DNA of 64,000 nt from Prevotella sp. (GTDB lineage Bacteria > Bacteroidota > Bacteroidia > Bacteroidales > Bacteroidaceae): positions 62,001-126,000 of the forward strand of contig JAGAON010000003.1 in assembly GCA_017623655.1 (NCBI GenBank), written 5' to 3'. A program made the position numbers and the translations under genes. The notes below the pieces were generated by a model. The model worked only from the letters and a program-made list of their open reading frames with translations. It was not told the origin of the DNA and searched no databases. Positions within the stretch are counted from its first letter, which is position 1; each line of letters opens with the position of its first letter. This document shows, piece after piece, positions 5,260-60,291 of this stretch.

Positions 5260-5405
5260 TTCGGACGCTCCAAGGTGCGTCCCTATAAGACATTGCGATT
5301 CAGTGCGTTACGGAAGGCGTTGCAAAAGGGTGCTGATTACCCGGTAATCAGGTGCAGATTACACAGTGATTAGCACCTGATTGCAAGGTAATCGGCACCC
5401 TTTTG
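5260..5405. repeat. Composite repeat: R2 - linker - R1
   Basis: R2 palindrome GGACGCTCCAAGGTGCGTCC, then a linker of about 37 nt that reads CATTGCGATTCAGTGCGTTA in its middle, then an R1 copy of about 85 nt from 5321. R1 has outer arms CAAAAGGGTGC / GGCACCCTTTTG and alternating TGATTAC modules. Order and linker match 45844-46150 and 60144-60291. Confidence 0.75.
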
Positions 5406-5501
5406 TTTTTGGGTTAGCTGTCATGAGTTATGAGAAGCGTTGTAGAACCGGTGTACCGCATCGTCTGAATGGCCTGCCACTGTCATCTTCTTGGCAGTTT
5501 G

Positions 5502-6623
5502 TCAGCTGATGTCTGTGTGCAGAATGTCGGCACAGTTGGCTCTTACCTGTTCGAAAATCTCTTTGCACCGGCGTTCGCCCATTTTGTTTCTTACGCCCAC
5601 TGCCATCATGTCCGCCAATGTAGGGCGGCCTGTCCCGTTGACGGATGTGGCGTGTTCTCCGTTATATCCCTCCTCGCATAATGTGAGGTCGTATGCCGGT
5701 GCAAGCCTCCACCGCCATGCGCCGTTATGCTTTTTGATGAGGAAGGTGAAGTTTTTGCAGTGGTCATCCTTGTTGCCGGTGAGGTAGTTGAACACCATCC
5801 TGCGGAACATCTCCTCCACTTCCTCCGGTTGTTGTGTCAGGTATCCGGTCAAGGCGAGCAGGTTATTGTAGTCAAGCACGGGGTTGGCGAGCGATACTGC
5901 AAGCAGTCCGCCGGCCGTTACGGTATGTATGCGGCTGCCATCCCTGTCGATGTCGAAACGCCGTGAGGCGAAATACCTGCCTTTCATCAGCCTTATGTCG
6001 GGTATGCTGATGCCGCAGGCCTTCGCCACTTGGTTGTAATGGTATTCCGTTTTCCCCATGTCTGACGGGTCGTATGTGTGCCGGAACTTCACCAGCCAGT
6101 GCCCTTTGTCGTCGGTAAACACCGCTTTCGGGCGGCAACCTCCGCTGTTTCCGCTGTTATACAACAGCAGTCCGGCATCGGAATCCTCCTGCTCACGCAG
6201 CACGGCGAGTGCTTTCTCCTGCATGAAGTCAAGGTCGGCGGTGTCGTTCTCATTGTCTATATAAGTCTCTGGATGATAGCATAACGCCCCCATGCCGTTG
6301 CTTCCGACGGTGCTCAGGCGGTCGAGTGATGACAGGGTGGTGTCGTCTATGCCTTCTTTCAACAGTGTCTTGTGGAGCAGATAGCGTCCGTAGCCGTCGG
6401 GAAGGCTGTCCTCGAATACCCCGAAGTTGCCGTAAAAGGGCGTTGGCCCGGCCACGAACAGTCCAGGTTTCAGCGGAAGTTCCAGCGGGGAAATGCTAAA
6501 ACCGTCACCGGACAGCCATGTCTTGGCGTACTCAAAGGCGCAAAGCCTGTTGTCATGGCGCAGCGATAGCGTGCCGACCGCTTGCCCGTGGTATGTCACC
6601 TCTAATCGTTCCGTTCTTTCCAT
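5502..6623 (-). CDS. hipA: HipA-family serine/threonine kinase (putative toxin)
   Basis: 373 residues. HipA kinases phosphorylate a translation target (glutamyl-tRNA synthetase in E. coli) and cause growth arrest; the target here is unknown. Visible: N-terminal HipA domain about 1-120, P-loop region NSGGCRPK (159-166) with Ser160 at the place of the autophosphorylated serine, Lys179 in WLVKF (ATP lysine), catalytic loop GNKDDHCKN (283-291) and the metal-binding PAYDL (309-313). All kinase motifs look intact. It is shorter than E. coli HipA (440). Its start overlaps the end of hipB by 22 nt, so the two are coupled. Confidence 0.88.
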   Translation of the reverse strand: MERTERLEVTYHGQAVGTLSLRHDNRLCAFEYAKTWLSGDGFSISPLELPLKPGLFVAGPTPFYGNFGVFEDSLPDGYGRYLLHKTLLKEGIDDTTLSSLDRLSTVGSNGMGALCYHPETYIDNENDTADLDFMQEKALAVLREQEDSDAGLLLYNSGNSGGCRPKAVFTDDKGHWLVKFRHTYDPSDMGKTEYHYNQVAKACGISIPDIRLMKGRYFASRRFDIDRDGSRIHTVTAGGLLAVSLANPVLDYNNLLALTGYLTQQPEEVEEMFRRMVFNYLTGNKDDHCKNFTFLIKKHNGAWRWRLAPAYDLTLCEEGYNGEHATSVNGTGRPTLADMMAVGVRNKMGERRCKEIFEQVRANCADILHTDIS

Positions 6624-6958
6624 TTCCTGTATGCTTTTTTCCTCTTGGCGTTTTTCCTTATCATCAGCAACTCTTCCATGGTCTGATACTTAGGTTCTGA
6701 AAACACGTTCTTTATCTCTGCGGTGTATCCCAAGGCCATGGCAAGGCAGATAAGGTTGTTCAACGAGATGAGGCCTTTCAGCTCAAAGCGCGTGATGTTG
6801 CCCACCGCCACGCCCGATTTCTTTGCTATCTGCTCGCGGGTGATGTTCTTTTCTATCCTGCGCCGCCTGAAATCGTGGGCTATCTGCATGGCTATCTCCT
6901 GCGGATTGTCATGCAGATAGTTTTCCAATATTGCTAAGATTTGATTTGTTTCTGCCAT
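6602..6958 (-). CDS. hipB: HipB-like XRE-family antitoxin/regulator
   Basis: 118 residues. Helix-turn-helix of the XRE type at about residues 37-75 (ITREQIAKKSGVAVGNITRF), preceded by a 30-residue N-terminal extension and followed by a Lys/Arg-rich tail (100-118). HipB proteins bind both the promoter and HipA to silence the toxin (family knowledge). It is the first gene of the hipBA unit; the promoter is at 6993-7000. An AT-rich imperfect palindrome between the promoter and the ATG (about 6973-6987) is a possible operator; no E. coli-type HipB operator is seen. Confidence 0.85.
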   Translation of the reverse strand: MAETNQILAILENYLHDNPQEIAMQIAHDFRRRRIEKNITREQIAKKSGVAVGNITRFELKGLISLNNLICLAMALGYTAEIKNVFSEPKYQTMEELLMIRKNAKRKKAYRKWKERND

Positions 6959-6992
6959 TTTTGTTGTGATAGTTATAATATATTACCTGTTG

Positions 6993-7072
6993 CAAAGGTA
7001 CATAAAATATTCGGGAAACAAGCATATCGGGACGTTTTTTCTTGCGGATTCGGAAATTTCAACGTATCTTTG
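6993..7072. promoter_or_regulatory. Divergent promoters of hipBA and the WYL regulator
   Basis: The minus-strand -7 box TACCTTTG at 6993-7000 faces hipB. The plus-strand -7 box TATCTTTG at 7065-7072, with a TCTTG -33-like box at 7040-7044, faces the WYL gene. The two -7 boxes are 64 nt apart, so the -33 regions are adjacent and could be controlled together. Confidence 0.65.
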
Positions 7073-7095
7073 CAGGTGTAAAAAAACGCCGGAAC

Positions 7096-8004
7096 ATGAG
7101 ACATGAACATCTGAAATGCGGACTGGAACTGATGCTGTTGCTCACTCAGAACAAGCAGTACAGGGTCGATGATATATGCGAAAAGCTCGGAATATCGCGC
7201 AGGAATTTTTATTATTACATTGATTTTTTCGTGCGTTCGGGCTTCAATGTCGAGAAAAACGGGCGATGTTACTCCCTGAGCAAGTCCAGCAAGTTCTTCC
7301 AAAAGCTGTATGATCTGGTGCAGCTGAGGGACGATGAGGTAGCGCAGATGCGCCGCCTGATAGAGGATGCTGGCTTGGAAAGCGGCAGCCTGAAAGGCCT
7401 TTACCACCGTCTTGACCGCTTTTATGACTTCAAGACGCTTGGCAACGAGCAGCTGCAACAGCGGGTTGTGGAGATGCGCGACGTCATTTCCGATGCCATA
7501 AGACGGCGCACCATGGTGAGGATAGCCGGATATTCGTCGCCGAACAGCCACACCGTGACGGACCGTGTGGTAGAGCCTTTCATGTTCCTGAATAATAATA
7601 AGGATGTCAGGTGCTACGAAATATCCTCCGGAACCAACAAGACCTTCCGCCTGTCGCGCATGACTGACGTGGAAAGGCTGGACACGCCGTGGGAGAATGC
7701 GCCCCTGCATAGGCAGGCATACACCGACCTTTTCGCCTTTTCAGGTGAGAAAACCATGAGAGTCACGCTCATAATGGGACAGCTGTCGCACAATGTGATG
7801 CTGGAGGAGTACCCCGAATCCGCCGCGTGCTTTGTGCGTAACGACGACGGGCGGTGGTTCTTCCGCACCGACGTTTGCAGCTATCTCGGCATAGGACGCT
7901 TCGTCTTGGGAATGTATGACGACGTGGAGATGCTGGGAGACGAAGGCTTGAAGGAGTATGTTGCAACGAAGTTACGCTCTTGGTGCGATAACCTTAAAAA
8001 ATGA
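7096..8004 (+). CDS. HTH/WYL-domain transcriptional regulator
   Basis: 302 residues. N-terminal helix-turn-helix about 22-55 (YRVDDICEKLGISRRNFYYY), a helical linker, a WYL-type ligand-binding region about 135-220 (with VRCYEI where the WYL strand lies), and a C-terminal WCX-like part. WYL regulators sense nucleic acid or nucleotide ligands in several systems (family knowledge). An open frame begins at 7042, but that ATG is upstream of the -7 box at 7065-7072, so the start is 7096. Divergent from hipBA; an unrelated promoter follows before the lipid genes. Confidence 0.82.
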   Translation: MRHEHLKCGLELMLLLTQNKQYRVDDICEKLGISRRNFYYYIDFFVRSGFNVEKNGRCYSLSKSSKFFQKLYDLVQLRDDEVAQMRRLIEDAGLESGSLKGLYHRLDRFYDFKTLGNEQLQQRVVEMRDVISDAIRRRTMVRIAGYSSPNSHTVTDRVVEPFMFLNNNKDVRCYEISSGTNKTFRLSRMTDVERLDTPWENAPLHRQAYTDLFAFSGEKTMRVTLIMGQLSHNVMLEEYPESAACFVRNDDGRWFFRTDVCSYLGIGRFVLGMYDDVEMLGDEGLKEYVATKLRSWCDNLKK

Positions 8005-8066
8005 TAAAACAAGGATTGGGGGCTGATTTTGTCTCCTAAAAATGCAAATAAATAAAAAAATAATAG

Positions 8067-8074
8067 TAATTTTG
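8067..8074 (+). promoter_or_regulatory. Promoter -7 box of the lipid acyltransferase pair
   Basis: TAATTTTG, 57 nt before the ATG at 8131, in an A/T-rich stretch. The -33 box is not distinct. Confidence 0.6.
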
Positions 8075-8130
8075 CCACACTTAACGGGTGTATGACGACC
8101 TGACAATCGAAAAAAGTTGATGACAGACAG

Positions 8131-8970
8131 ATGCAACTGACGGAAAAGACAATAGACGTTAACTCCATATTACGCTCGAAGATGGGCGGCAAGGCTGCGT
8201 ATGTACCGCGCTTTCTGGTGCGTTGGCTGCAAAAAATACTGCATCAGGACGAGCTGAACGGCTTTCTGTGGCAGTCTCGCGGCGAAACAGGCTCGGTGTG
8301 GTTGCGCCACTGTGTGGACTTCCTGCGTAACGAAGTGCGTGTCGTCGGCGCGGAAAACCTGCCTGATTCCGATGACCCGCGCCGCTACACGTTTGTCAGC
8401 AACCACCCCCTCGGTGGCATAGACGGTGTCGCGATAGGTGCGGTCATAGGCGAACGGTACAGCGACAACTTCCGTTATCTCGTCAATGACCTGCTCATGA
8501 CGCTTCCGGGACTGGCCCCTTTGTGCATCCCTATCAACAAGACCGGCAGGCAAAGCCGTGACTTCCCGCGCATGGTGGAGGCGGGATTCGCCTCCGGACA
8601 CCACATGGTCGTATTCCCGGCAGGGCTGTGTTCAAGGAAAATAGACGGCCGGATACAGGACCTTCCGTGGACAAAGACATTCATAACAAAGAGTGTTCAG
8701 ACCAAGCGCGACGTGGTTCCGATGTATTTCAGCGGACGCAACTCGGAACGCTTCTACCGCATTGCCAACATCTGCAAGGCGCTTCGGTTGCGGTTTAACC
8801 TTGCGATGCTGTTCCTGCCGGATGAGATGTTCCGCAACAGGGGCAATACATTCGAGCTCCATGTGGGCAAGCCCATACCGTGGCAGACATTCGACAGCAG
8901 CCGCACACCGGCGCAATGGGCGCAGTGGGTGAGGCGGGAAGTATATCGGCTTGGCGCCGGAAACCAATAG
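8131..8970 (+). CDS. glsA: PlsC-like O-acyltransferase, probable glycine/ornithine lipid synthesis (GlsA-like)
   Basis: 279 residues. LPLAT-family acyltransferase; the motif SNHPLGGIDG (90-99) provides the catalytic His92 and Asp98, spaced H-x5-D rather than the H-x4-D usual in PlsC. It would acylate the hydroxyl of an N-acylated amino acid to give a membrane aminolipid. The name follows Bacteroides thetaiotaomicron, where a GNAT N-acyltransferase (GlsB) and this type of O-acyltransferase (GlsA) are adjacent and make glycine lipids. Here the partner starts 35 nt downstream. Substrate is inferred; automatic annotation would say hemolysin or 1-acyl-glycerol-3-phosphate acyltransferase. Confidence 0.78.
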   Translation: MQLTEKTIDVNSILRSKMGGKAAYVPRFLVRWLQKILHQDELNGFLWQSRGETGSVWLRHCVDFLRNEVRVVGAENLPDSDDPRRYTFVSNHPLGGIDGVAIGAVIGERYSDNFRYLVNDLLMTLPGLAPLCIPINKTGRQSRDFPRMVEAGFASGHHMVVFPAGLCSRKIDGRIQDLPWTKTFITKSVQTKRDVVPMYFSGRNSERFYRIANICKALRLRFNLAMLFLPDEMFRNRGNTFELHVGKPIPWQTFDSSRTPAQWAQWVRREVYRLGAGNQ

Positions 8971-9005
8971 AACAACCATATTTTTATAAATCATAGATTC
9001 CGTAA

Positions 9006-10010
9006 ATGGAGGCAGAAATAATACAGCCGGTACCTTTGGAACTGCTCCTTGAAGAGCTGACGCCGGAGAAACAGTTGCGCATGACAAACAGAAGCCACAA
9101 CGAGATATACGTTGTTACGGCGCACGACTCACCGAATGTCATGCGGGAGATAGGCCGTCTGCGCGAGATAACGTTCCGTCTTGCCGGCGGAGGCACGGGC
9201 AAGGCGATGGACATTGACGAGTTTGACACCTCGGACAACTGTTACAAGCAGCTCATAGTGTGGAATCCTGAGGCGCAGGAGATTATCGGCGGTTACAGAT
9301 ACCTTATGGGAGACGAGTGGGAATACGGCGCTGACGGGCAGCCGGTACTTGCCACCAGCCACATGTTCCGCTTCTCGGACAAGTTCATCAGGGACTATGC
9401 GCCATATACGATAGAACTCGGACGCTCTTTCGTGACGCCGGAATACCAAAGCTCCAAGATGGGAGCCAAGAGCCTCTTTGCCCTCGACAACCTTTGGGAC
9501 GGCCTCGGTGCGCTGACCGTTATCAACCCCGACATGAGGTATTTCTTCGGAAAGATGACCATGTATCCGAGCTACATACGTTTCGGAAGGGACATGATTC
9601 TGTACTTTCTGAAAAAACATTTCGACGACAAAGAGGGCCTTATCTACCCGATGAACCCCTTACAGCTCGACACTCCGGAGGAAGAACTGGCGCAAGTGTT
9701 CTGCGGCCGTGACTTCAAGGAGGACTACCGCATACTTAACGGGGGCATACGCGCTCTGGGATTCAACATCCCTCCGCTGGTAAACGCCTACATGAACCTC
9801 TCCCCGACGATGAAACTCTTTGGCACGGCGATTAACGATGGCTTCGGAGATGTGGAGGAAACGGGCATACTTATCGCCGTGAACGAGATACTGGAAAATA
9901 AATATGTGCGCCACATTGAGTCCTTTGTGAAGGAGCATCCGGAAGCGTTGAAGCTGACAAGCGGTGCTAACAAGATTGTGACGAGAATCAAGAACCAGAT
10001 GAAAGGCTGA
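9006..10010 (+). CDS. glsB: GNAT-fold N-acyltransferase, probable glycine/ornithine lipid synthesis (GlsB-like)
   Basis: 334 residues. Belongs to the hemolysin/OlsB-type acyl-ACP N-acyltransferases, which add a 3-hydroxy fatty acid to the amine of glycine or ornithine. The characteristic N-terminal half reads through REITFRLAGGGTGKAMDIDE (50s-70s) and ELGRSFVTPEYQ (about 138-149). Longer than proteobacterial OlsB, as in Bacteroidetes homologues. Same transcription unit as the O-acyltransferase; a strong hairpin terminator follows at 10035. Confidence 0.8.
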   Translation: MEAEIIQPVPLELLLEELTPEKQLRMTNRSHNEIYVVTAHDSPNVMREIGRLREITFRLAGGGTGKAMDIDEFDTSDNCYKQLIVWNPEAQEIIGGYRYLMGDEWEYGADGQPVLATSHMFRFSDKFIRDYAPYTIELGRSFVTPEYQSSKMGAKSLFALDNLWDGLGALTVINPDMRYFFGKMTMYPSYIRFGRDMILYFLKKHFDDKEGLIYPMNPLQLDTPEEELAQVFCGRDFKEDYRILNGGIRALGFNIPPLVNAYMNLSPTMKLFGTAINDGFGDVEETGILIAVNEILENKYVRHIESFVKEHPEALKLTSGANKIVTRIKNQMKG

Positions 10011-10034
10011 CAAATCCCTTTCCTATAATATCCA

Positions 10035-10075
10035 AAAGGCGGTGTGACTACTATGTCATGCCGCCTTTCTTTGTT
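10035..10075. terminator. Bidirectional terminator between glsB and recO
   Basis: Stem AAAGGCGG...CCGCCTTT with an inner TGAC/GTCA stem, then TCTTTGTTT on the plus strand. The 5' A-run gives a T-run on the minus strand, so it may also end recO transcripts. Confidence 0.75.
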
Positions 10076-10084
10076 TCCATTCGT

Positions 10085-10840
10085 TCAAAGACATCGCAGC
10101 ACTTCCAGCGTCTTCATCTCCCCGAAGGCCGGTATGTGCAGGCGGTAGAACCTCAGGCTGATGTCCGTTACCCTGTTGCGTTCGTCCCTTGTCATGCGGA
10201 ACAGGTGGCTGTTTCCGGGCGTCATGCGCATCAACGCCAGTATGCGCTCGGCGTCATTGGGGCGCAGAAAGTCGCTGTGGCATGGGGCGGAGACGGTGAA
10301 ACACCCCTCGCGGAGGTCGAAAAAAGCCCCCGGAGTGAAGCTCTCCATGTCGGGATAGAATCCGAGAAACCGCGTCATGCGCATCATAAACATAAGGTGG
10401 AAGTTGGCGATGCCGTGCCCGGCGGTATCCAGCCATATCAGACTCTGCTCCACAAAGTCATATAATATATGGTCGCAGTGCAGGTCACGGGTGCTGTATG
10501 ACAGAAATTCCGCCACGAAGAAAGCCAGTGACAGCTTCACGCCGTCAAAGGGGAGCGACGTGTATGCCACCGCTATGCGTGCATCGTCAAGCCTTGCCAG
10601 CGACTGCCTCGGCGTGCCGGTAATATCCACTTCCAGTATGGAAAGCGGCTGGAAGAACCTGCGGCACACCTCGTTGCCTGCGCGGCTGCGGCCCGATCGC
10701 CTTGCGTTACCTCGCCGGCGGTCGTTGAAAGGCAGTATTACCGACAGCCTGCCGCACTCGCGGCATAGCAAGTCGGCTATGAGTTTGTTGTCTCCGAACT
10801 TCACGGTGCGCAGCACTATGCAACGGCTTTTTTCTTCCAT
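10085..10840 (-). CDS. recO: DNA repair protein RecO
   Basis: 251 residues. Helps RecR load RecA at single-strand gaps (family knowledge). The N-terminal OB fold begins EEKSRCIVLRTVKFGDNKLI and continues with LSVILPF; the rest is the helical RecO C-terminal domain. The four-cysteine zinc site found in some RecO proteins is not present. It converges on glsB and is divergent from tRNA-Glu. Confidence 0.88.
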   Translation of the reverse strand: MEEKSRCIVLRTVKFGDNKLIADLLCRECGRLSVILPFNDRRRGNARRSGRSRAGNEVCRRFFQPLSILEVDITGTPRQSLARLDDARIAVAYTSLPFDGVKLSLAFFVAEFLSYSTRDLHCDHILYDFVEQSLIWLDTAGHGIANFHLMFMMRMTRFLGFYPDMESFTPGAFFDLREGCFTVSAPCHSDFLRPNDAERILALMRMTPGNSHLFRMTRDERNRVTDISLRFYRLHIPAFGEMKTLEVLRCL

Positions 10841-10869
10841 TTTGTCACTTTTACTATCGTTTCAGGCTG

Positions 10870-10877
10870 CAAAAATA
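10870..10877 (-). promoter_or_regulatory. Promoter -7 box of recO
   Basis: Minus-strand TATTTTTG fits TAnnTTTG, 30 nt upstream of the recO ATG. Confidence 0.45.
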
Positions 10878-10916
10878 CAAAAAATACGCATGAAAATGAA
10901 AAATATCGCGATAAAA

Positions 10917-10948
10917 TTTGCCAGATTGCGGGAAAAGTTATACCTTTG
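10917..10948 (+). promoter_or_regulatory. Promoter of tRNA-Glu (and probably rpsT)
   Basis: TTTG 10917-10920 and TACCTTTG 10941-10948 with a 20-nt spacer. No other promoter is visible before rpsT. Confidence 0.72.
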
Positions 10949-11762: not shown

Positions 11763-11995
11763 ATGTAGGAGCATACCTTGGTGCGTCCGCATTTCCTCTG
11801 CACTGTTGGCGGTAAAACGCTCCTTCGGACGCACCAATGTGCGTCCCTACACCATGGCGTTGTAGCCCCTCTGTATATTGTTGACTTTCAGCCTTGATTC
11901 GCCCCTCTCCGCAATCAGCACCATATCACCGCGTAATCAGCACCTGTTTACACTGCAATCAGCACCTGATTGCGGGGTAATCGGCACCCTTTTGC
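11763..11995. repeat. R2 pair followed by an R1 copy
   Basis: A degenerate R2 palindrome near 11770-11791 and a good one (GGACGCACCAATGTGCGTCC) near 11826-11845 face each other; after about 65 nt comes an R1 copy (11911-11995) made of GCAATCAGCACC modules and ending GGCACCCTTTTGC. This fills most of the rpsT-gyrB gap; nothing else is seen there except the gyrB promoter. Confidence 0.65.
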
Positions 11996-14159: not shown

Positions 14160-14273
14160 ATAACTATCCGGACGTGTCCTCGCTGGCCGGCTGTTAGCTG
14201 TGTGGCGCGTCCCGGAATGTTAATTCTTTGGTTGCTGTCTTGCCTCGCTCTGATGGCGATTGGCATCCGAAAC

Positions 14274-14396
14274 GCCCTGAAAGGGCAACAGAACTTAGCC
14301 CGGGGTGTTAACCCCGGGTGTTAAATGCGTCACGAGTAAAAAGTATTGGGACCCCGAAGCCGGCAGGCGAGGTGGCCAACGGCCACCGAGGGGTAT
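14274..14396. repeat. R4 element, single arm
   Basis: Contains GCCCTGAAAGGGC, CCCGGGGTGTTAACCCCGGG and ACCCCGAAGCCGGCAGGCGA followed by GAGGGGTA. One arm of the R4 architecture without its inverted partner. The gyrB-AraC gap otherwise shows no gene. Confidence 0.6.
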
Positions 14397-16140: not shown

Positions 16141-16334
16141 CTGCAATTAGCACCTGATTACCTTGTAATCAGGTGCTAATTGTATTGTAATCAGGTGCTA
16201 ATCACACGGTAATCAGCACCCTTTTACAAAGCCTTTTGTAACATTTTGAATAGCAATGCCTTGTAGGGACGCACCTTCTTGCCGCCGGCATAAAGCCTAT
16301 GGCAAGCGGCAAAGCCGAGCGGGTGCGTCCGCCT
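16141..16334. repeat. Composite repeat: R1 - linker - long-form R2
   Basis: R1 copy 16141-16227 ending CAGCACCCTTTTAC, linker about 16228-16262 (GCCTTTTGTAACATTTTGAA), then the long form of R2: GTAGGGACGCACC, an insert with an internal TTGCCGC/GCGGCAA stem, and GGGTGCGTCCG. Reverse orientation of the composite at 45961-46150. Confidence 0.75.
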
Positions 16335-22605: not shown

Positions 22606-22690
22606 GCAAAAGGGTGCTGATTACCCGGTAAACAGGTGCTGATTACATTGTAAAAGAGGCCTGATTACGATGCAATCAGCACCCTTTTAC
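22606..22690. repeat. R1 repeat
   Basis: 85 nt with outer arms CAAAAGGGTGCTGATTAC and AATCAGCACCCTTTTAC, and the internal variant AAACAGGTGCTGATTACATT shared with the copy at 26757. It lies 3' of ung, facing its end. Confidence 0.75.
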
Positions 22691-23741: not shown

Positions 23742-23940
23742 CAGCACAGGAAATGGCAGACACGCCATTCCGCTGGGATGGATAATAGTTTACATAATTA
23801 AAGAATATAGTTAGTTAATACAGATTGTAAAGTAGGTAAAGTTACACTTTCGTTTCCGAAAAATATCATGTCTGTCCGTGAGGGTCGCATCCTATTTCCC
23901 GGAAATTTTATTGTCCTTAACCTAAAAATCCACCTTTTTG

Positions 23941-24078
23941 CAGCGGCTTTTGTAATGCGTTGAGTTGTAAAGTGTTGTAGGGACGCACCTTGGTGCGTCC
24001 GCCTCGTTATGTTTTCCCACGTTAACAGGTGCGTTTTGCCATGTGTTTTCGGACGCACCAAGGTGCGTCCCTACATCG
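23941..24078. repeat. R2 inverted pair with R1-side linker
   Basis: Linker GCTTTTGTAATGCGTTGA, R2 palindrome (GGACGCACCTTGGTGCGTCC), a spacer of about 50 nt, and the opposite R2 palindrome. About 100 nt of it is almost identical to 26878-26980. The R1 part expected left of the linker is missing. Confidence 0.75.
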
Positions 24079-24126
24079 TCGTTTGTTATTCTCGTATAAA
24101 GATCACCGGTTTAGTACCGCCTTGTA

Positions 24127-24201
24127 GAGACGAGGTATTACCTCGTCTCAAGAAAAAATGTAACGTAATATTATTACGGAGACGATGTGATACATAGTCT
24201 C
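24127..24201. repeat. R3 hairpin pair
   Basis: R3 palindromes at 24127-24149 and 24179-24201, 29 nt apart, with outward TGTAGAGACG and CGTCTCTACA-like ends arranged as an inverted pair. Each has one or two changes from the 5124 copy, and the changes in the first copy are compensated on both arms (GAGGT/ACCTC), which suggests the hairpin is kept. Confidence 0.7.
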
Positions 24202-24358
24202 TACATACGGGCAACACCCCCATTGCGACATCGTTGGTTATTATCCTGCATCCTGACCTGCGGGCGTTACGGGTGGAAAATGCACCAGATATGGGGTAAA
24301 AATAAATCTTTGTGCCGCTTGGTATGATTCCGGTTGTGCGTCCTTTTACTTTTTTTCT

Positions 24359-26756: not shown

Positions 26757-26980
26757 GCAAAAGGGTGCCGATTACACGGTAAACAGGTGCTGATTACATT
26801 GTAAAAGAGGCCTGATTGCGGTGTAATCAGCACCCTTTTGCGATGGCTTTTGTAACGCATTGAAATGCAACGGCTTGTAGGGACGCACCTTGGTGCGTCC
26901 GCCTCGTTATGTTTTCCCACGTTGACAGGTGCGTTTTGCCATGTGTTTTCGGACGCACCAAGGTGCGTCCCTACATCGTT
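26757..26980. repeat. Composite repeat: R1 - linker - R2 pair
   Basis: R1 copy 26757-26841, linker GGCTTTTGTAACGCATTGAA, then R2 palindromes at about 26881-26900 and 26951-26970 as an inverted pair. The R2 part nearly duplicates 23976-24078. Confidence 0.78.
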
Positions 26981-26992: not shown

Positions 26993-27334
26993 TCGCCGAA
27001 CCCCGAAGGGGTGACATATCCAAGCACAGGGTGTAAAGGTTTAGCTCGGCGTTAGCCAACCCTGTGTTAAGGCGTGATGTCCGCAAAACGTATCGGGAAC
27101 CCCGTAGCCGGCAGGCGAGGAGCACAACGTGCGACGAGGGGTGATATATCCATTGTGCATCATGCGTCATGACATGAATATATTGTGATGGTTCCTTGGG
27201 ACTTTATGTCACCCCTCGTCGCACGTTGTGCTCCTCGCCTACCGGCTTCGGGGTTCCCGACACCATTTTCCGCACACGAATGTTTACACAGGGCTTACGC
27301 CCTGTGCTGTAATATGTCACCCCTTCAGGGTTCG
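26993..27334. repeat. R4 inverted-arm element, complete
   Basis: Left arm 26993-27145 and right arm about 27209-27334 are inverted copies (GAACCCCGAAGGGGTGACA, CACAGGGTGTAAAG, CTCGGCGTTAGCCAACCCTG, GAGGAGCACAACGTGCGACG). Spacer about 63 nt. The loop side of the right arm keeps CGTCGCACGTTGTGCTCCTC, which exactly pairs with the left arm. No gene is seen between 26703 and 27443. Confidence 0.75.
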
Positions 27335-34837: not shown

Positions 34838-35091
34838 TTTCAAATTAATAATTAATAGTTAAAAATTAAAAGTTATGATTACGTTTCGCCGCCTGCAAGG
34901 GCTCTCTTACAATGGCAGACCTGGCACTCCGTCATGTAACCACGACTTTTCAAATTAATAATTAATAGTTAAAAATTAAAAGTTATGATTACGTTATGCC
35001 TGTCTGTAAGGCCAAGCCATAAATGAAAGGTTGAACATTCCATCAGGTAATCATAATTATTAACTTTTAATTCTCTAATTTTTAATTCAAA
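34838..35091. repeat. A/T-rich direct and inverted repeats between murE and mraY
   Basis: Two 48-nt direct copies with the same start TTTCAAATTAATAATTAATA (34838-34885 and 34948-34995), 110 nt apart, and a related inverted segment at about 35049-35091 (ATTAACTTTTAATTC...TTTTTAATTC). No gene, no promoter-like box. Resembles the non-coding A/T repeats common in Bacteroidales. Confidence 0.8.
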
Positions 35092-36448: not shown

Positions 36449-36535
36449 GCAAAAGGGTGCCGATTACACTGCAAACAGGTGCTGTTTATCATGCAATCAG
36501 GTGCTGATTACACTCTAATCAGGTGCCTTTTACAA
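36449..36535. repeat. R1 repeat inside the dcw operon
   Basis: 87-nt R1 copy (GCAAAAGGGTGCCGATTAC ... AATCAGGTGCCTTTTAC) between mraY and murD, ending 60 nt before the murD ATG. No promoter box is seen after it. Confidence 0.78.
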
Positions 36536-45607: not shown

Positions 45608-45713
45608 CGTCAGTGTAGTTGAGGAATAATGTGCCGCCTTGTGTTGGTTGTGCGGCCGCGAAATCAGGCACGGCATTTTGCCGTGCATTGGGCGGAATAC
45701 CGTCCGCCTTGTA

Positions 45714-45786
45714 GAGACGATGTATTACATCGTCTCAGTAAACAAACACCCGGTGTCGGCAGGGAGACGATGTGGTACATCGTCTC
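45714..45786. repeat. R3 hairpin pair
   Basis: R3 palindromes at 45714-45736 and 45764-45786, 27 nt apart, facing each other with TGTAGAGACG and CGTCTCTACA outer ends. Same plan as at 24127-24201. Confidence 0.75.
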
Positions 45787-45843
45787 TACACCGCGGATAT
45801 GATAACGCATAAGCATACACGGCACGAATGCCCGCAAACGCGA

Positions 45844-46150
45844 TGTAGGGACGCACCTTCTTGCCGCCGGCATAAAGCCTATGGCAAGCGGCAAAGCCGA
45901 GCGGGTGCGTCCGCCAACATAGGTGAAACGCCTCCGCCGGCACAGTTATACACGATAATTCGGACGCACCCGCTCGGCTTTGCCGCTTGCCATAGGCTTT
46001 ATGCCGGCGGCAAGAAGGTGCGTCCCTACAAGTCGTTGCCATTCAATGCGTTACAAAAGCCGTTGTAAAAGGGTGCTGATTACACGGTAAACAGGTGCTG
46101 ATTACAATGCAATCAGGTGCTAATCACACGGTAATCAGGTGCTGATTGCG
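45844..46150. repeat. Composite repeat: long R2 inverted pair - linker - R1
   Basis: Two long-form R2 copies, 45844-45913 and 45961-46030, form an essentially perfect 70-bp inverted repeat around 47 nt. A linker (GTTGCCATTCAATGCGTTAC) and an R1 copy (46065-46150) follow. The ftsZ-dut gap contains no gene apart from these repeats and the dut promoter. Confidence 0.8.
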
Positions 46151-48650: not shown

Positions 48651-48654
48651 CGAT

Positions 48655-55028: not shown

Positions 55029-55065
55029 GTGTCTTGTCGTATTTTGTATGTTATGGATTCCGGTG

Positions 55066-55073
55066 CAAAGTTA
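55066..55073 (-). promoter_or_regulatory. Promoter -7 box of the AraC-dgt-HhH unit
   Basis: Minus-strand TAACTTTG; CTTG at the -33 place (55094-55097, 20-nt spacer). Confidence 0.65.
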
Positions 55074-55187
55074 ATCAAATTATTAGAGAATTGCAAGTCT
55101 TTTACGGAAGAAATGTTTTTTCAAACGGAAATATTGTTTGTCGTGCTGCAATTCCTTTCCCCTTGCCGTGCCTTGTAGGCGCACATA

Positions 55188-55232
55188 GAAAAAGCAGCCT
55201 GCCGTTTCCGGTTGGAAAAGGGTGGCTGCTTT
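55188..55232 (-). terminator. Intrinsic terminator of rpmH
   Basis: AAAGCAGCC / GGCTGCTTT stem followed on the minus strand by TTTTTC, about 50 nt past the L34 stop. Confidence 0.75.
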
Positions 55233-55279
55233 ATTGCGGTTGTAACGCAAACGCCTTTTGTCTTCAAAGGCGTAAGGCC

Positions 55280-55435
55280 TTACTTTCCGTGGTGTTCGTC
55301 GCTTACGGTGAGCTTCTTACGTCCGTGTGCGCGGCGTGACGCAAGCACGCGACGGCCGTTCTTTGTTGACATACGCTCACGGAAACCATGCTTGTTCACG
55401 CGACGGCGGTTGTGTGGTTGGAATGTTCTTTTCAT
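55280..55435 (-). CDS. rpmH: 50S ribosomal protein L34
   Basis: 51 residues, found by reading the minus strand directly. It begins [20 protein letters not shown] and continues [20 protein letters not shown], the L34 signature, with an Arg/Lys-rich composition and a short extra tail ([11 protein letters not shown]). Own promoter (55546) and terminator (55188). Divergent from efp. Confidence 0.96.
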
Positions 55436-55545
55436 TTTCGTTTAAGATATCTTATATTTTTTATTATTGATTACGGTGTCGTGTCGCGCCGGTTGCAAGG
55501 GCTTTGCGGCGGTTGCAGTCCGAACGCATTACGCAATTCAGGGTG

Positions 55546-55553
55546 CAAAGGTA
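55546..55553 (-). promoter_or_regulatory. Promoter -7 box of rpmH
   Basis: Minus-strand TACCTTTG with CTTG at the -33 place (55574-55577), 20-nt spacer; about 110 nt of leader before the L34 start. Confidence 0.7.
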
Positions 55554-55648
55554 CTGATTTCTTTTCAATTATGCAAGAAAAGTCGGGAAATTAGTGCCTG
55601 AAAACGCTAAAATATTGTCTTGATAACGCTTTTACGGAAGTTTTTTAT

Positions 55649-55656
55649 TAATTTTG
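55649..55656 (+). promoter_or_regulatory. Promoter -7 box of efp
   Basis: TAATTTTG, 39 nt before the efp ATG, with T-rich sequence upstream. Confidence 0.65.
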
Positions 55657-55694
55657 CAACGATATACGTGCGTATAATATAAACGAAAATAACA

Positions 55695-56261
55695 ATGATT
55701 AATTCACAAGACATCAAGAAAGGCGTAGCTGTCCGCATGGACGGCGGTATTTGGGTTTGCATCGATTTCCAGCACCGCAAGCCGGGAAAGGGTAACACCA
55801 TCATGAACATCAAGCTGAAAAACGCAAGCGACGGCCGCGTGCTTGAGCGCCGTTTCAACATCGGCGAGAAGCTGGAAGACGTGCGTCTGGAGCGCCGTCC
55901 GTACCAATACCTCTACAAGGAGGGTGATGATTATATCTTCATGAACCAAGAGACCTTCGACCAGGCACCTATCCCCGCCGACCTCGTTACGGGCGTGGAG
56001 TACATGAAGGAGTCTGACATCGTGGAGGTTGTAAGCGACGCCGACACCGAGACCGTGCTCTATGCCGAGATGCCGGTGAAGACGGTTCTGCGCGTAGTGC
56101 ACTCTGAGCCAGGCGTGAAGGGCGACACCGCAACTAACACTCTCAAGCCAGCGACGCTGGAGACGGGTGCGGAAATCCGCGTGCCCCTGTTCATCAGCGA
56201 GGGCGAACTCGTGCAGGTAGATACACGCGACGGCAGCTATCTGCAACGCATGAAGGAATAA
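55695..56261 (+). CDS. efp: Elongation factor P
   Basis: 188 residues. Relieves ribosome stalling at proline runs. Three beta-barrel domains; the domain I tip loop HRKPGKGNT has Lys32 at the position that is modified in E. coli (Lys34), so a lysine-type EF-P. No EpmA/EpmB gene is in the window. The C-terminus ends with the conserved GEYVRVDTR-like region (GELVQVDTRDGSYLQRMKE). Confidence 0.95.
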   Translation: MINSQDIKKGVAVRMDGGIWVCIDFQHRKPGKGNTIMNIKLKNASDGRVLERRFNIGEKLEDVRLERRPYQYLYKEGDDYIFMNQETFDQAPIPADLVTGVEYMKESDIVEVVSDADTETVLYAEMPVKTVLRVVHSEPGVKGDTATNTLKPATLETGAEIRVPLFISEGELVQVDTRDGSYLQRMKE

Positions 56262-56445
56262 CAAGGCTGTGCCTGACACGGAAAGTGAAGGAAGAAAAGC
56301 GGGAGAAGCGGGTCGGAGGCTGGTTGTACGGCGTGCGGCCACGACGCTTTCGCGCTTGTCTTTCTTCACTTTTTTGCATCCTTCCGGACGAGACGGTGAC
56401 TCACCCGGCATGAGGCCGCGGCACGCCTGACGTCCGGGCATAAAG

Positions 56446-56530
56446 TAAAAGGGTGCCGATTACACCGTAATCAGCACCTGATTGCACGGTAATCAGCACC
56501 CTTTTGCGATGTAATCGGCACCCTTTTGCG
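56446..56530. repeat. R1 repeat
   Basis: 85 nt (TAAAAGGGTGCCGATTACAC ... GTAATCGGCACCCTTTTGCG) between efp and the glycosyltransferase gene, with an additional inner CAGCACCCTTTTGCG so that two closing arms are present. Nothing else is seen in 56262-56573. Confidence 0.75.
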
Positions 56531-56573
56531 ACGGTGTCCGCAAGTGCTTGTGCCGCAATGACTTGACAACGAG

Positions 56574-57611
56574 ATGAAGTACAGCGTTATAGTGCCGGTG
56601 TTCAACAGACCGGACGAGGTGGAGGAACTGCTCGGCAGCCTCACGCGCCAGTCGTTCACGGACTTTGAGGTGATAGTCGTGGAGGACGGCTCGGAGGTCA
56701 CGTGCCGTGACGTGTGCGACCGTTACAAGGACCGTCTGCGCCTCTCCTACTATGAAAAGCCCAACTCCGGCCCCGGACAGACGCGCAACTATGGCGCGGA
56801 ACGGGCGCAGGGCGAATACCTTATTATATTGGACAGCGATGTCGTCCTGCCCGACGGCTATCTCGATGCCGTGGAGAAAGAACTGTCGGCCGCTCCGTGT
56901 GACGCTTTCGGCGGTGCCGATGCGGCGCACCCCTCGTTCACTCCCGTGCAGAAGGCCATAAGCTATTCCATGACAAGTTTCTTCACTACGGGCGGCATAC
57001 GGGGCGGCAAGAAAAAGCTGGACAGGTTCTATCCGCGGTCGTACAATATGGGCATACGCCGTGACGTCTATCTGAGACTCGGCGGATTCAGTCCCATGCG
57101 CTTCGGCGAGGACATCGACTTCTCATACCGCATCATAGAGGCCGGATGCACGTCGCGCCTCTTTCCCGACGCATGGGTGTGGCACAAGCGGCGCACCGAC
57201 CTGCGAAAATTCTTCCGGCAGGTGTATAACAGCGGCATTGCCCGCATCAACTTGGAGAAACGTCACCCCGGAACCATGAAGCCGGTGCACCTGCTCCCCA
57301 TGGTGTTCACCGTGGGAGTCTTGCTGCTCACGCTGCTGTCGGCGGCGGGAAGTATGCTGATGTACTATGGCGACCAGCACCGCTGGGCGTTGCTGAGCGT
57401 TGTGCCGAGAGTGCCGATATACCTCTATTCCCTGCTGATATTCATCGACTCGTCCGTCCGTAACCGCTCGCTGAAGATAGGACTGATAAGCGTTGCCGCG
57501 GCGTTCGTGCAGCTTATGGGCTACGGATGCGGCTTCATTGAGGCGTGGTGGAAACGCTGTGTGCTCGGGAAAGACGAGTTTCAGGCGTTTGAAAAGACGT
57601 TCTACAAGTGA
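56574..57611 (+). CDS. Family 2 glycosyltransferase, membrane-anchored
   Basis: 345 residues. GT-A fold starting YSVIVPVFNRPDEVEELL, acceptor side VVEDGSE, DxD-type motif ILDSDVVLP near 85-93, and FGEDIDFSYRI as the catalytic-base ED motif. Two or three membrane segments from about 240 on. Sugar and acceptor unknown. First gene of a unit with radC, the DUF59 gene and the lpxH-like gene; lipid A or surface glycan synthesis is a possible setting. Confidence 0.88.
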   Translation: MKYSVIVPVFNRPDEVEELLGSLTRQSFTDFEVIVVEDGSEVTCRDVCDRYKDRLRLSYYEKPNSGPGQTRNYGAERAQGEYLIILDSDVVLPDGYLDAVEKELSAAPCDAFGGADAAHPSFTPVQKAISYSMTSFFTTGGIRGGKKKLDRFYPRSYNMGIRRDVYLRLGGFSPMRFGEDIDFSYRIIEAGCTSRLFPDAWVWHKRRTDLRKFFRQVYNSGIARINLEKRHPGTMKPVHLLPMVFTVGVLLLTLLSAAGSMLMYYGDQHRWALLSVVPRVPIYLYSLLIFIDSSVRNRSLKIGLISVAAAFVQLMGYGCGFIEAWWKRCVLGKDEFQAFEKTFYK

Positions 57612-57633
57612 TTACCCGATACCCGTTACGCTC

Positions 57634-58395
57634 ATGGCTGAATGGAAAGTGACAGAATTTTATAAGCCTTCGCCCGGTGAAGACAATGCGGAGGCGCAGG
57701 AAACGGAGGGAAAAAGCCTCACCATAACGCAGTGGGCGGAGGACGACAGGCCGCGGGAGAAACTGGCGGCGCATGGTGCCGATGCCCTGTCGGCGGCCGA
57801 ACTGCTCGCCATACTCATCGGGTCGGGCAACCAAAGGGAGACTGCCGTCGATCTGATGAAACGCATACTCGGTGACTGCGATAACCGCATCGCCACGCTG
57901 AGCCGCATGAGTCTCGACGAACTTATGCGCTACAACGGCATAGGCGAGGCCAAGGCCGTCACGATACTTGCCGCCTGCGAACTGGGAAAACGGCGCGAAC
58001 GGGAGGACAAACCCGTGCGCACAGTGCTCGGAGACCCCGCCGCCCTGTATGAGCATCTGCACCTGAGAATAAGGGATCTGGACGTGGAAGAGGCGTATGT
58101 GGTGCTGATGAACCAGTCGTTCAAGCACATACGCACCGTCAGAATGTCGCACGGCGGACTGACGGAGACGGCCGTTGACGTGAGACTTATCATCAAGGAG
58201 GCGTTGCAGGCCAACGCTACCGTCATAGCACTTGCGCACAATCACCCCAGCGGAAGCGTCAGGCCAAGCCGCGAAGACGACGCCGTGACAAGGAAAGTGG
58301 CGGACGCCTGCGCCCTGATGCGCATACATTTCCTCGACCATCTCATACTGGCCGACGGCGATTACTACTCGTATCGTGAGGAAGGGAAAATCTGA
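57634..58395 (+). CDS. radC: RadC-family JAB/MPN protein
   Basis: 253 residues. N-terminal helix-hairpin-helix-like region and a C-terminal MPN+ (JAMM) domain with HNHPSGSVRPSREDD, which keeps the zinc-binding residues. The historical DNA-repair role is doubtful; molecular function unknown. The frame begins at 57493 within the preceding gene, but MAEWKVTEFYK at 57634 starts 22 nt after it ends. Confidence 0.92.
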   Translation: MAEWKVTEFYKPSPGEDNAEAQETEGKSLTITQWAEDDRPREKLAAHGADALSAAELLAILIGSGNQRETAVDLMKRILGDCDNRIATLSRMSLDELMRYNGIGEAKAVTILAACELGKRREREDKPVRTVLGDPAALYEHLHLRIRDLDVEEAYVVLMNQSFKHIRTVRMSHGGLTETAVDVRLIIKEALQANATVIALAHNHPSGSVRPSREDDAVTRKVADACALMRIHFLDHLILADGDYYSYREEGKI

Positions 58396-58446
58396 TAACG
58401 CATATATACATTATAAATTGTACATTATACATTATAATATCACACA

Positions 58447-58767
58447 ATGACACAGGAAGAACATTCACAGGCGGAGCAGCGCATCATAGAGGTGCTGAAA
58501 ACCGTTTACGACCCGGAGATACCCGTAAACATATACGATCTCGGCCTTATCTACAAGATAGACCTTGCCATGGACGGCGCGCTTGACATCGACATGACCT
58601 TCACCGCGCCTTCTTGTCCGGCGGCGGACTTTATCATTGAGGACGTGCGCACAAAGGTTTCGGCCGTCAACGGGGTCACGTCGGCAAACGTAAACATGGT
58701 CTTCGAGCCGGAGTGGGACAAGTCAATGATGACCGAAGAGGCGCGGGTGGAACTCGGTTTTGAATAA
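58447..58767 (+). CDS. DUF59 / MIP18-family iron-sulfur assembly protein
   Basis: 106 residues. Single MIP18-type domain with VYDPEIPVNIYDLGLIYKI and the conserved cysteine in TAPSCPAADFI. Homologues (SufT, PaaD-like) help Fe-S cluster maturation. No suf genes lie close. The 51-nt gap before it has repeated TACATTATA motifs. Confidence 0.9.
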   Translation: MTQEEHSQAEQRIIEVLKTVYDPEIPVNIYDLGLIYKIDLAMDGALDIDMTFTAPSCPAADFIIEDVRTKVSAVNGVTSANVNMVFEPEWDKSMMTEEARVELGFE

Positions 58768-58784
58768 GTTAACGACAGTTTATC

Positions 58785-59600
58785 ATGGCTATGGAAAGAA
58801 GGGAAAGGCCGTATGCCCGCGGGGAAGAGGACTATACAAGGGCTAAGAACATATATTTTCTTGCCGACGCGCACCTTGGTTCGCTGGCTTTGGAGCACCG
58901 GCGGACGCAGGAACGGCGACTTGTGAACTTCCTTGACGGGATAAAGCATAAGGCGGAAGCGATATTCCTGCTCGGCGATATGTTTGACTTCTGGAACGAA
59001 TACCGCTATGTCGTGCCCAAGGGCTACACCCGTTTTCTCGGCAAACTGTCCGAGTTGACGGACATGGGCGTCGAGGTTCACTACTTCGTGGGCAACCACG
59101 ACCTCTGGACTTACGGCTATCTTGAGCAGGAATGCGGCGTTATCCTTCACCGGAAACCGGCCGCCATGGAGCTGCATGGCAAGACTTTCTTCCTTGCACA
59201 CGGCGACGGTCTGGGCGATCCGGACCCTAAATTCAAGGTGCTGAAATGGTGTTTCCACAACAGGCTGTGCCAGAAAGCCCTGAACTTCATACATCCCCGC
59301 TGGGGAATGGCGTTGGGGCTGAACTGGGCGAAGCACTCGAGGCTGAAGCGCGAGGACGGCAAGGAACCGCCGTATATGGGCGAGTCGAGGGAGCATCTCG
59401 TGCTGTTCGCGAAGGATTACCTGCGCACACATCCCGACATCGACTACTTCCTTTTCGGCCACAGGCACATAGAACTCGACCTGATGCTCACCAAGCAGGC
59501 GAGAATGATGATACTTGGCGACTGGATTTGGCAGTTCACCTACGCCGTGTTTGACGGCGAGCACATCTTTATGGAGAATTATTCCGAGGGCGACAACTGA
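58785..59600 (+). CDS. lpxH: UDP-2,3-diacylglucosamine hydrolase, LpxH-type
   Basis: 271 residues. Calcineurin-like metallophosphoesterase that makes lipid X in lipid A synthesis (family knowledge). Metal motifs: LADAH (26-30), GDMFDFW (64-70), GNHD (103-106), AHGD (138-141) and GHRH (225-228). The DFWNEY and YGYLEQECGV stretches match LpxH rather than generic phosphoesterases. It starts 17 nt after the DUF59 gene. Confidence 0.88.
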   Translation: MAMERRERPYARGEEDYTRAKNIYFLADAHLGSLALEHRRTQERRLVNFLDGIKHKAEAIFLLGDMFDFWNEYRYVVPKGYTRFLGKLSELTDMGVEVHYFVGNHDLWTYGYLEQECGVILHRKPAAMELHGKTFFLAHGDGLGDPDPKFKVLKWCFHNRLCQKALNFIHPRWGMALGLNWAKHSRLKREDGKEPPYMGESREHLVLFAKDYLRTHPDIDYFLFGHRHIELDLMLTKQARMMILGDWIWQFTYAVFDGEHIFMENYSEGDN

Positions 59601-59642
59601 CTGTCGCCCTCTTTCGTTGTATGCCGGAATGTGACAGTCGTA

Positions 59643-59677
59643 TAAACAAAAACAAGCCGCAAGCGAACTTGCGGCTT
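59643..59677 (-). terminator. Intrinsic terminator of tRNA-Phe
   Basis: 10-bp perfect stem AAGCCGCAAG / CTTGCGGCTT with a 4-nt loop, followed on the minus strand by GTTTTTGTTT. The stem may also help end lpxH transcription from the other side. Confidence 0.82.
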
Positions 59678-59683
59678 ATCGTG

Positions 59684-59756
59684 TGGTGCCACCAGGAATC
59701 GAACCGGGGACACAAGGATTTTCAGTCCTTTGCTCTACCAACTGAGCTATGGCACC
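59684..59756 (-). tRNA. tRNA-Phe (GAA)
   Basis: Minus strand: acceptor GGTGCCA pairs with TGGCACC, discriminator A; anticodon loop CTGAAAA gives GAA; T-loop GTTCGAT. CCA is not encoded. Confidence 0.95.
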
Positions 59757-59826
59757 GTTTGCAACTTGGTTTGGAATTTTGCTCTTTCATGTCTGTATGG
59801 AAGCGCTGTATTTCCTAATTGCGATG

Positions 59827-59858
59827 CAAAGGTACTGCCTTTTTTTCAATCTACCAAA
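59827..59858 (-). promoter_or_regulatory. Promoter of tRNA-Phe
   Basis: Minus strand: TTTG at 59855-59858 and TACCTTTG at 59827-59834, spacer 20 nt. Confidence 0.75.
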
Positions 59859-59918
59859 TAATTTGCAAACTTTTTGCAAATTTCTTGTGATTTTCTTCGT
59901 TATTTCAAAAAAAAGTAG

Positions 59919-59926
59919 TAATTTTG
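59919..59926 (+). promoter_or_regulatory. Promoter -7 box of tRNA-Pro
   Basis: TAATTTTG, 31 nt before the tRNA. The tRNA-Phe and tRNA-Pro promoters are back to back. Confidence 0.68.
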
Positions 59927-59957
59927 CACCCGGATACGAAAACATACAGTTTTTTAT

Positions 59958-60033
59958 CGGGGTGTAGCGCAGTTGGTAGCGCACTACGTTCGGGACGTAG
60001 GGGTCGCCAGTTCGAGTCCGGTCACCCCGACCA
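59958..60033 (+). tRNA. tRNA-Pro (CGG)
   Basis: Acceptor CGGGGTG pairs with CACCCCG, discriminator A; anticodon stem CTACG/CGTAG around TTCGGGA gives CGG; T-loop GTTCGAG. The next three bases are CCA, which may be encoded or chance. Confidence 0.93.
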
Positions 60034-60048
60034 AAATTACTGGGAAAG

Positions 60049-60092
60049 GCCTCCGTTAGCTGGGTTTCAGCTTTCGGAGGCTTATTCTTTGT
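60049..60092 (+). terminator. Intrinsic terminator after tRNA-Pro
   Basis: GCCTCCG / CGGAGGC stem with an inner AGCTG/CAGCT stem, followed by TTATTCTTTG. Confidence 0.75.
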
Positions 60093-60143
60093 TATTGGTA
60101 TATGACGTGTTTGTGCGTCCGCCGGACGCGGGAAACGCGGCGA

Positions 60144-60291
60144 TTCGGACGCACCAAGGTGCGTCCCTACAACGTATTGCAATTCAATGTGTTGCAAACG
60201 CCGCCGTAAAAGGGTGCTGATTACCTCGCAATTAGGTGCTGATTACACTGCGATTAGCACCTGATTACAATGCAATCAGCACCCTTTTACA
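60144..60291. repeat. Composite repeat: R2 - linker - R1
   Basis: R2 palindrome GGACGCACCAAGGTGCGTCC, linker with TATTGCAATTCAATGTGTTG, and an R1 copy at 60207-60291 (TAAAAGGGTGCTGATTAC ... AATCAGCACCCTTTTAC). Same order as at 5260 and 45961. Confidence 0.8.

Follow-up and report, generated by a model that had tools for sequence, protein, structure and literature searches.

A fixed 35-nt junction joins R1 arrays to GTAG-type palindromes in intergenic DNA of Prevotella

Repeats of the window

The window, i.e. the whole 64,000-nt stretch of Prevotella sp. DNA analyzed here (C8:62001-126000 of assembly G000, a 1.93-Mb draft of 9 contigs, ~60% complete), contains two families of dispersed repeats: R1, an array of 19-nt units, and R2, a repetitive extragenic palindrome (REP). 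A preliminary description had reported R2, a linker and R1 in the same relative order at five places, and linker and R2 lacking R1 at 23941-24078, and had considered the two repeats as probable modules of one element. All six places exist, with coordinates right to a few bases, and at each of the five concordant junctions the distance between the R2 tag (CTAC/GTAG; CTAT in the first) and the first R1 unit is exactly 35 nt. At the sixth place the linker, hereafter the leader, and R2 were confirmed (23,942-24,074), but ~12 nt of R1 remain. Nine window arrays reach a frame score of at least 32, the threshold required in most counts, and five of them are joined to R2. The features are given below in window coordinates; leader scores derive from a position weight matrix (PWM) built from 19 of the joined copies that it then scores, with values below 7 counted as no leader.

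5263-5286, minus strand: R2, single GTAG-type REP, CTAT tag variant facing R1
5287-5321, plus strand: leader, 35 nt, PWM score 39.4
5322-5406, plus strand: R1 array, four 19-nt units with 3-nt spacers (C8:67322)
11911-11995, plus strand: R1 array without leader, R2 end 60 nt off
16143-16227, minus strand: R1 array, four units (C8:78143)
16228-16262, minus strand: leader, 35 nt, score 38.7
16263-16330, plus strand: R2, long-loop REP (GTAGGGACGCACC...GGTGCGTCC), repeat family D4
22606-22690, plus strand: R1 array, without leader or R2 at 35 nt (C8:84606)
23930-23941, minus strand: R1-end remnant, ~12 nt
23942-23976, minus strand: leader, 35 nt, score 34.5
23977-24074, unstranded: R2 inverted doublet, 98 nt, outward tags
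26757-26841, minus strand: R1 array, four units (C8:88757)
26842-26876, minus strand: leader, 35 nt, score 41.1
26877-26974, unstranded: R2 inverted doublet, 98 nt, outward tags
36449-36533, plus strand: R1 array, unjoined (C8:98449)
45845-46029, unstranded: R2 inverted doublet, 185 nt, two long-loop REPs
46030-46064, plus strand: leader, 35 nt, score 44.9
46065-46149, plus strand: R1 array, four units (C8:108065)
56445-56529, plus strand: R1 array, unjoined, weak leader (score 14.1) (C8:118445)
60147-60170, minus strand: R2, single REP
60171-60205, plus strand: leader, 35 nt, score 37.5
60206-60290, plus strand: R1 array, four units (C8:122206)

The junction between R1 and R2

The main statistics were obtained from a 462-kb sample (24% of the assembly) consisting of contig C3 (338,615 bp) and C8:22001-146000 (124,000 bp, including the window). 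Examination of its 62 R1 arrays revealed an R2-like end (up to three mismatches) within 75 nt of 25 R1 sides; the distance is exactly 35 nt in 19 cases and 22, 23, 46, 57/13, 60 and 61 nt in the other six. R1 and R2 are both abundant between genes, but since 19 of the 25 nearby pairs stand at one exact distance and share the leader, the join does not arise by chance, and the view that the two came together at random in intergenic DNA rich in repeats, already doubted in the preliminary description, is effectively refuted. A composite of R1 and R2 with fixed geometry exists. Its constancy was borne out by a junction sequence model, aligned from 19 of 22 candidate junctions, for which 150 of 1926 first-look candidates from the whole assembly were scored; at least 52 full-length composites were recovered (at least 71 bits, spanning model positions 1-2 to at least 97). 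At C3:175333, another REP occupies the place of R2 at the identical distance from R1.

Within the sample, 19 of 57 R1 arrays are joined to R2 and 38 are not, while 21 of 76 R2 ends have a leader and R1 at 35 nt (PWM score of at least 19) and 55 remain unjoined; leader scores show a gap between 19.0 and the next best value, 11.0. The 21 joined R2 ends adjoin 19 four-unit arrays, one two-unit array and one truncated array.

Architecture of R1 and its leader

R1 is nearly always 85 nt long, with four 19-nt units, 3-nt spacers and a 22-nt pitch, so that the length of about 85 nt noted earlier proved nearly fixed. The 62 arrays detected automatically in the sample (against none in a reversed-sequence control) have four units in 57 cases, three in 3, two in 1 and five in 1; 23 unit matches above 14 bits lie outside four-unit arrays, 16 of them grouped by two or three. 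Read in one direction, the unit is roughly GYAA-NNNG-GTG-CTGATTRC, its outer bases forming a dyad frame around a directional core that is found in both orientations; the first unit points inward in 43 of 57 arrays, as does the last in 43 of 57. Unit positions carry ~1.3 bits on average (0.4-2.0) and spacers ~0.5 bits (0.1-0.9). With spacers of only 3 nt and units in both orientations, R1 does not resemble a CRISPR-like array, and with four units in 57 of 62 arrays here and in 16 of 19 arrays of genome G220 it lacks the variable copy number of a minisatellite. No description of such an array was recognised in the literature searched on these repeats.

None of 57 arrays lies within a gene predicted by a simple gene finder. 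A terminator or 3'-end element was rejected, as no bias in gene orientation is evident: the flanking genes (n=56; one array without two neighbours was skipped in the gene-neighbourhood and unit/spacer counts) are tandem in 42 cases, convergent in 10 and divergent in 4, to be set as raw counts beside shares of 71, 14 and 15% of intergenic bases.

The linker is R1's own leader, occurring also without R2. It is assigned to R1 because its short boxes keep register in arrays lacking R2: among 105 R1 sides of the window species that have no R2 at 35 nt, TTG occurs at -29 in 15 (P 4e-9), YCAR at -22 in 16 (P 2e-14) and TTAC/TTGC/TTAT at -14 in 15 (P 2e-9), and two of these sides adjoin a decayed or other REP. 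In genome G001, the last box is found at -14 in 10 of 43 R1 sides; in genome G016, 28 and 29 of 129 sides carry the last two boxes, displaced outward by 35 nt. The G016 leader alignment (24 of 25 references) has TTRCAA at the position taken by the CTACAA of R2 in joined copies of the window species, as judged by eye.

Pairing within and between R1 units gave no support for hairpins in G000, either within units or across the array. Watson-Crick pairs within units are about as frequent as expected from independence, and clearly fewer at four of nine paired positions (observed vs expected: 102 vs 127 at 2-18, 76 vs 120 at 5-15, 100 vs 125 at 6-14 and 19 vs 114 at 9-11), and complementarity between units shows no clear excess over shuffles in G000 or G001. 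This lack of excess in G000 disfavours hairpins and favours directional double-stranded sites. A structured RNA was likewise rejected: no Rfam family matched R1 or the G016 elements at the gathering score, and neither the leader nor the trailer of G016 yielded a consensus structure (0 pairs; the trailer was aligned from 19 of 25 references, after six judged by eye to lack it had been set aside). One composite, run at a relaxed Rfam threshold, gave 16 matches, mostly to microRNA families and far under gathering (best E 0.0008). The FopS small RNAs, a set of 14 members of ~65-70 nt according to the accessible text of PMC11697453, were rejected as the identity of R1.

R2 is a GTAG-type REP

R2 combines a GTAG tag with a short palindrome. 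The sample contains 76 R2 ends with at most two mismatches to GTAGGGACGCACC or its complement, and 67 with one mismatch (reversed control, 0). Inverted doublets with outward tags, 24 in number, are the main unit, as in the REP doublets forming hairpins known as REPINs; their lengths fall into classes of 72-75 and 94-98 nt, with single cases of 118, 141, 163 and 185 nt containing long-loop REPs, and for 28 of the 76 ends no partner was found. As a side observation, these lengths (about 73, 96, 118, 141, 163 and 185 nt) rise in a ladder of ~22-nt steps, near the R1 pitch.

R2 is therefore a GTAG-type REP, REPIN-like when doubled. Like the GTAG REPs and REPINs described in the accessible text of PMC3733652 and PMC3116915, it is a short, intergenic, high-copy palindrome with a GTAG tag, arranged in inverted doublets of preferred lengths; unlike them, it occurs in Prevotella, whereas the hosts listed in those portions are Proteobacteria, Cyanobacteria, Chloroflexi and PVC, not Bacteroidetes. 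It further differs in its fixed distance to another repeat family and in that no cognate REP-associated tyrosine transposase (RAYT) was found in the ~60%-complete assembly. The preliminary statement that the window has no transposase was checked for the Y1 (RAYT-type) family alone, whose sole assembly match is on another contig (C3:292123). The motifs of this protein (NHVH, WQ, YIKNQ..HH) resemble subclass 1.2 of PMC6006769, a subclass listed without REPs in the accessible text of that study.

A second GTAG-type REP family (GTAGAGACGATGTATTACATCGTCTC) was observed at window positions 5114-5155, 24117-24227 and 45704-45812. In several sampled copies beyond the window, its tag stands ~21 nt from one R1 side, with a similar short linker (by eye).

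Arrays in other Prevotella genomes

The R1-type architecture was found in six further genomes, four of which have a core of their own. G016 contains 65 arrays in 600 kb (reversed control, 1) with core TGAYGCA; G001, 22 arrays in 600 kb (control, 0) with core GGCC; G220, 19 arrays in 160 kb (control, 0); and G197, 4 arrays in 100 kb (control, 0). The core of the window species recurs in SUG853 and G021. G147 was left out of the family, as its R1-type matches do not exceed the control (6 vs 10), and G095, in which a related repeat of ~330 nt has the same pitch, is outside these counts, the automatic finder having locked there on another tandem repeat. A half-unit scan of named genome records returned at least 58 stretches; among the matches listed, 29 come from metagenome-assembled genomes of Prevotella/Prevotellaceae and the remaining ones are single matches in other groups.

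Unit number is looser in G016, with 20 arrays of four units, 32 of five, 10 of six and 2 of seven (n=65). In 26 of these 65 the conserved context is much longer: the leader measures ~150 nt, and most of the 26 also have a trailer that ends in CTTTACAAAA; these long elements have no fixed orientation relative to neighbour genes. Element ends within G016 copies resemble each other (P 0.006, 19 copies), though not as a clean duplication. No terminal inverted repeats were recognised in the G000, G016 and G095 alignments, no systematic transposon search being made, while the G220 ends show a short inverted match by eye (TGTAAA...TTTACA).

In G220 (two contigs), the repeat lies downstream of a gene that resembles tnaA but scores under the family cut-off (527 vs 825.8 bits), and it has a 184-position consensus holding four 19+3-nt units; the ~60%-complete window assembly has no tnaA match. 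In a separate observation, the G220 unit cores are of two exchangeable types (GCGGCT, CGTAGG) that swap positions, with frame and spacers remaining similar. The G220 location recalls PINSR, which Naito and colleagues described in the Prevotella intermedia group as a 188-bp intergenic non-coding repeat of 177-184 copies, without terminal inverted repeats and also found downstream of tnaA (accessible text of PMC4755523). The two repeats are alike in intergenic position and length, and because the G220 version sits downstream of a tnaA-like gene, PINSR is taken as the closest known relative of R1-type arrays and probably belongs to the same family. That portion of PMC4755523 mentions, unlike R1, no 22-nt array, leader or relatives beyond one clade, and copies of the window species, compared with PINSR by description, are shorter and have another core.

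BrickBuilt of Porphyromonas gingivalis (accessible text of PMC4596501) resembles R1 in being intergenic and in having a leader followed by short tandem units (23 nt) and a tail, but differs in its copies (19, ranging from 84 to 991 nt), its variable repeat number and its terminal inverted repeats like those of ISPg1/ISPg9. R1, in contrast, nearly always has four units, with no such terminal repeats recognised. The ends of Tn7 carry several 22-bp transposase binding sites side by side; unlike these, R1 units stand in either orientation, and no cargo or transposase was seen with them.

Close relatives and history of the composite

SUG853 shares 72-85% identity with G000 in aligned blocks. None of its 15 R1 arrays is joined, and at the places orthologous to C8:138086 and C3:20210 it has the array and lacks leader and R2. 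At the former, the two genomes agree, fully or nearly, in units 3-4 and in two of the three spacers, and the flank adjoining the SUG853 array is ~1.6 kb distant in G000. The simplest reading is that leader and R2 were added in the window species, as opposed to lost in SUG853. In G021, none of 7 arrays in eight loci is joined, yet the junction model found composites genome-wide, overturning for this genome the idea, based on 22 arrays, that close relatives lack the composite; the two G021 composites that were read have the exact 35 nt, and one is the ortholog of C3:33413, with identical spacers (9/9).

Seven places were informative against SUG853 or G021 (by eye): five share the array and two do not, and in three of the shared ones the units are largely rewritten with the four-unit geometry kept. 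Target-site duplications and empty sites had been proposed as a check; at C8:127281, G021 lacks R1 and G000 has a possible, imperfect duplication. Comparison with G001 yielded a common array at one of ten places, several others aligning poorly. The place of the window array at 11911 also has an array in SUG853, G021 (degenerate) and G016. The degenerate copy (G021:C105) contains a ~20-nt tandem repeat (GTGGTTAAAGGTTGTAGGTT), noted here as a side observation. Old functional sites at conserved places genus-wide found no support, there being no excess over control, although the one place at 11,911 has arrays in G000, G021, SUG853 and G016.

Other repeats in the window and assembly

Matches to Rfam Acido-Lenti-1 lie at window positions 206-251, 14273-14318 and 27287-27332, at least two of them inside the dispersed repeat family D9. 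The single Y1 transposase gene detected is flanked by a similar two-hairpin repeat (CCGGGGTGTTGCCCCGG...CGCCCTTTCAGGGCG), so one may ask if Acido-Lenti-1 itself is mobile and REP-like. The same gene adjoins a tandem array of ~44-bp units (TATCAACGGACGGGTGAAACCGTT...) at G000:C3 ~292,600-292,900. Two 53-nt direct repeats with 96% identity, 110 nt apart, occur at window positions 34838-35000.

Interpretation

The geometry is stricter than the preliminary description had it, and its interpretation is half correct: R1 plus leader forms one family, R2 a second. The composite is real, but to call it one element overstates the case, because most copies of R1 and of R2 are unjoined, the leader occurs without R2, SUG853 has sites without leader and R2, and R1-type arrays are present in G001 and G016, where the composite model gives at best weak matches. 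The simplest view is that the fixed junction arose secondarily.

We tentatively favour, with somewhat less than even confidence, the reading that R1 is a platform for a sequence-specific double-stranded-DNA-binding protein, that R2 is a separate REP docked on its leader, and that the joined block has been exchanged between arrays. R1 and its leader would then represent, in this species, a polarised non-coding element that several Prevotella species carry between their genes. Its plan is a leader whose short boxes keep a constant register, then four (elsewhere 4-6) directional 19-bp sites at 22-bp pitch. Several copies of the protein, which may be the spreading machinery of old or a host factor, would sit side by side on the array, and the pitch, ~two helical turns, would place the sites on one face. 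Judging from its position, the CTAC tag of R2 may dock at the conserved TTRCAA box of the leader, possibly by means of a Y1 (RAYT) enzyme, and the 35-nt gap is proposed to be fixed because of this docking. The joined block would then have moved between arrays, at least partly via recombination through R1 units, the direction being presumably gain of R2 and not loss. What the data show directly are the fixed gap, the leader without R2, the lineage-specific cores and the relative's orthologous arrays without leader and R2.

An alternative, which we consider unlikely, is that R1, leader and R2 constitute one composite transposing as a unit, like a miniature inverted-repeat transposable element, with single R1 and R2 as broken remains. 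The number and constant spacing of full-length composites, the exact G021 copies (one at an orthologous place), the tendency of joined R2 doublets to present mostly the same end to R1 (by eye) and the similarity of whole arrays discussed below all speak for it. Against it stand the R1-type arrays with other cores in G001, G016, G220 and G197, the unjoined arrays of SUG853 with two sites retaining R1 only, and the fact that in joined arrays units 2-4 vary far more (mean identity 0.69, 0.70 and 0.75) than unit 1 (0.87); moreover, R1 similarity is weakly tied to leader similarity in joined copies (Mantel r 0.19, P 0.057), and neither terminal inverted repeats nor clean target duplications were recognised, without a systematic search. 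Immobile R1 arrays, acting as selected regulatory or chromosome-organising operators of the host, are to our judgement also improbable. The absence of arrays inside predicted genes, the fixed number of constrained units between free spacers, and the five of seven informative places common to close relatives agree with such operators, but gene-orientation bias is not evident and positional conservation with G016 or G001 does not exceed control. Finally, it is distinctly improbable that R1 acts as an RNA or single-stranded hairpin (terminator, mRNA stabiliser or small RNA): its dyad look, with AAAAGGGTGC...GCACCCTTTT ends, and the complementarity of units 1 and 3 in two other genomes point that way, whereas the pairing tests in G000 and G001, the absence of consensus structure in the G016 leader and trailer and the Rfam results argue against it.

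Several observations weigh against the platform reading. Units 1 and 3 are complementary beyond shuffles in G016 (z 3.0) and in G220 (z 5.8, from 30 rows partly mis-registered, including elements read on the wrong strand), so that strand pairing may occur in these two genomes. Whole-array similarity (0.859 vs 0.837) lies above all 60 unit shuffles, and that of joined copies (0.840 vs 0.817) above all 200; because it beats every shuffle, some whole-array copying is indicated, and we infer a mix of such copying and exchange between arrays. Leader and R2 may have been lost at both SUG853 sites. The only Y1 match, in an assembly ~60% complete, lies ~12 kb from the closest R2 end, and no binding protein for R1 was identified in this sequence analysis. 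Gene ends bearing R1 in the window species have arrays in G016 in 2 of 17 cases vs 4 of 18 controls, and in G001 in 5 of 30 vs 3 of 41 controls (P 0.20); since array positions are unconserved beyond close relatives, turnover is favoured over a fixed regulatory role.

A wider proposal, possible though rather doubtful, is that phased site arrays exist genus-wide and are read by a DNA-binding protein with drifting specificity, lineages rewriting the cores, also at shared places, and REPs using the leader as a dock. If the link to PINSR, which is not proven, holds, a repeat regarded as isolated in one species group would join a multi-lineage Prevotella family with one geometry and changing sequence. 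The junction suggests a rule for the attachment sites of REP doublets. If a protein reads the arrays, the drift of its specificity would be testable across species, and the role of high-copy intergenic repeats of Bacteroidota would open to experiment.

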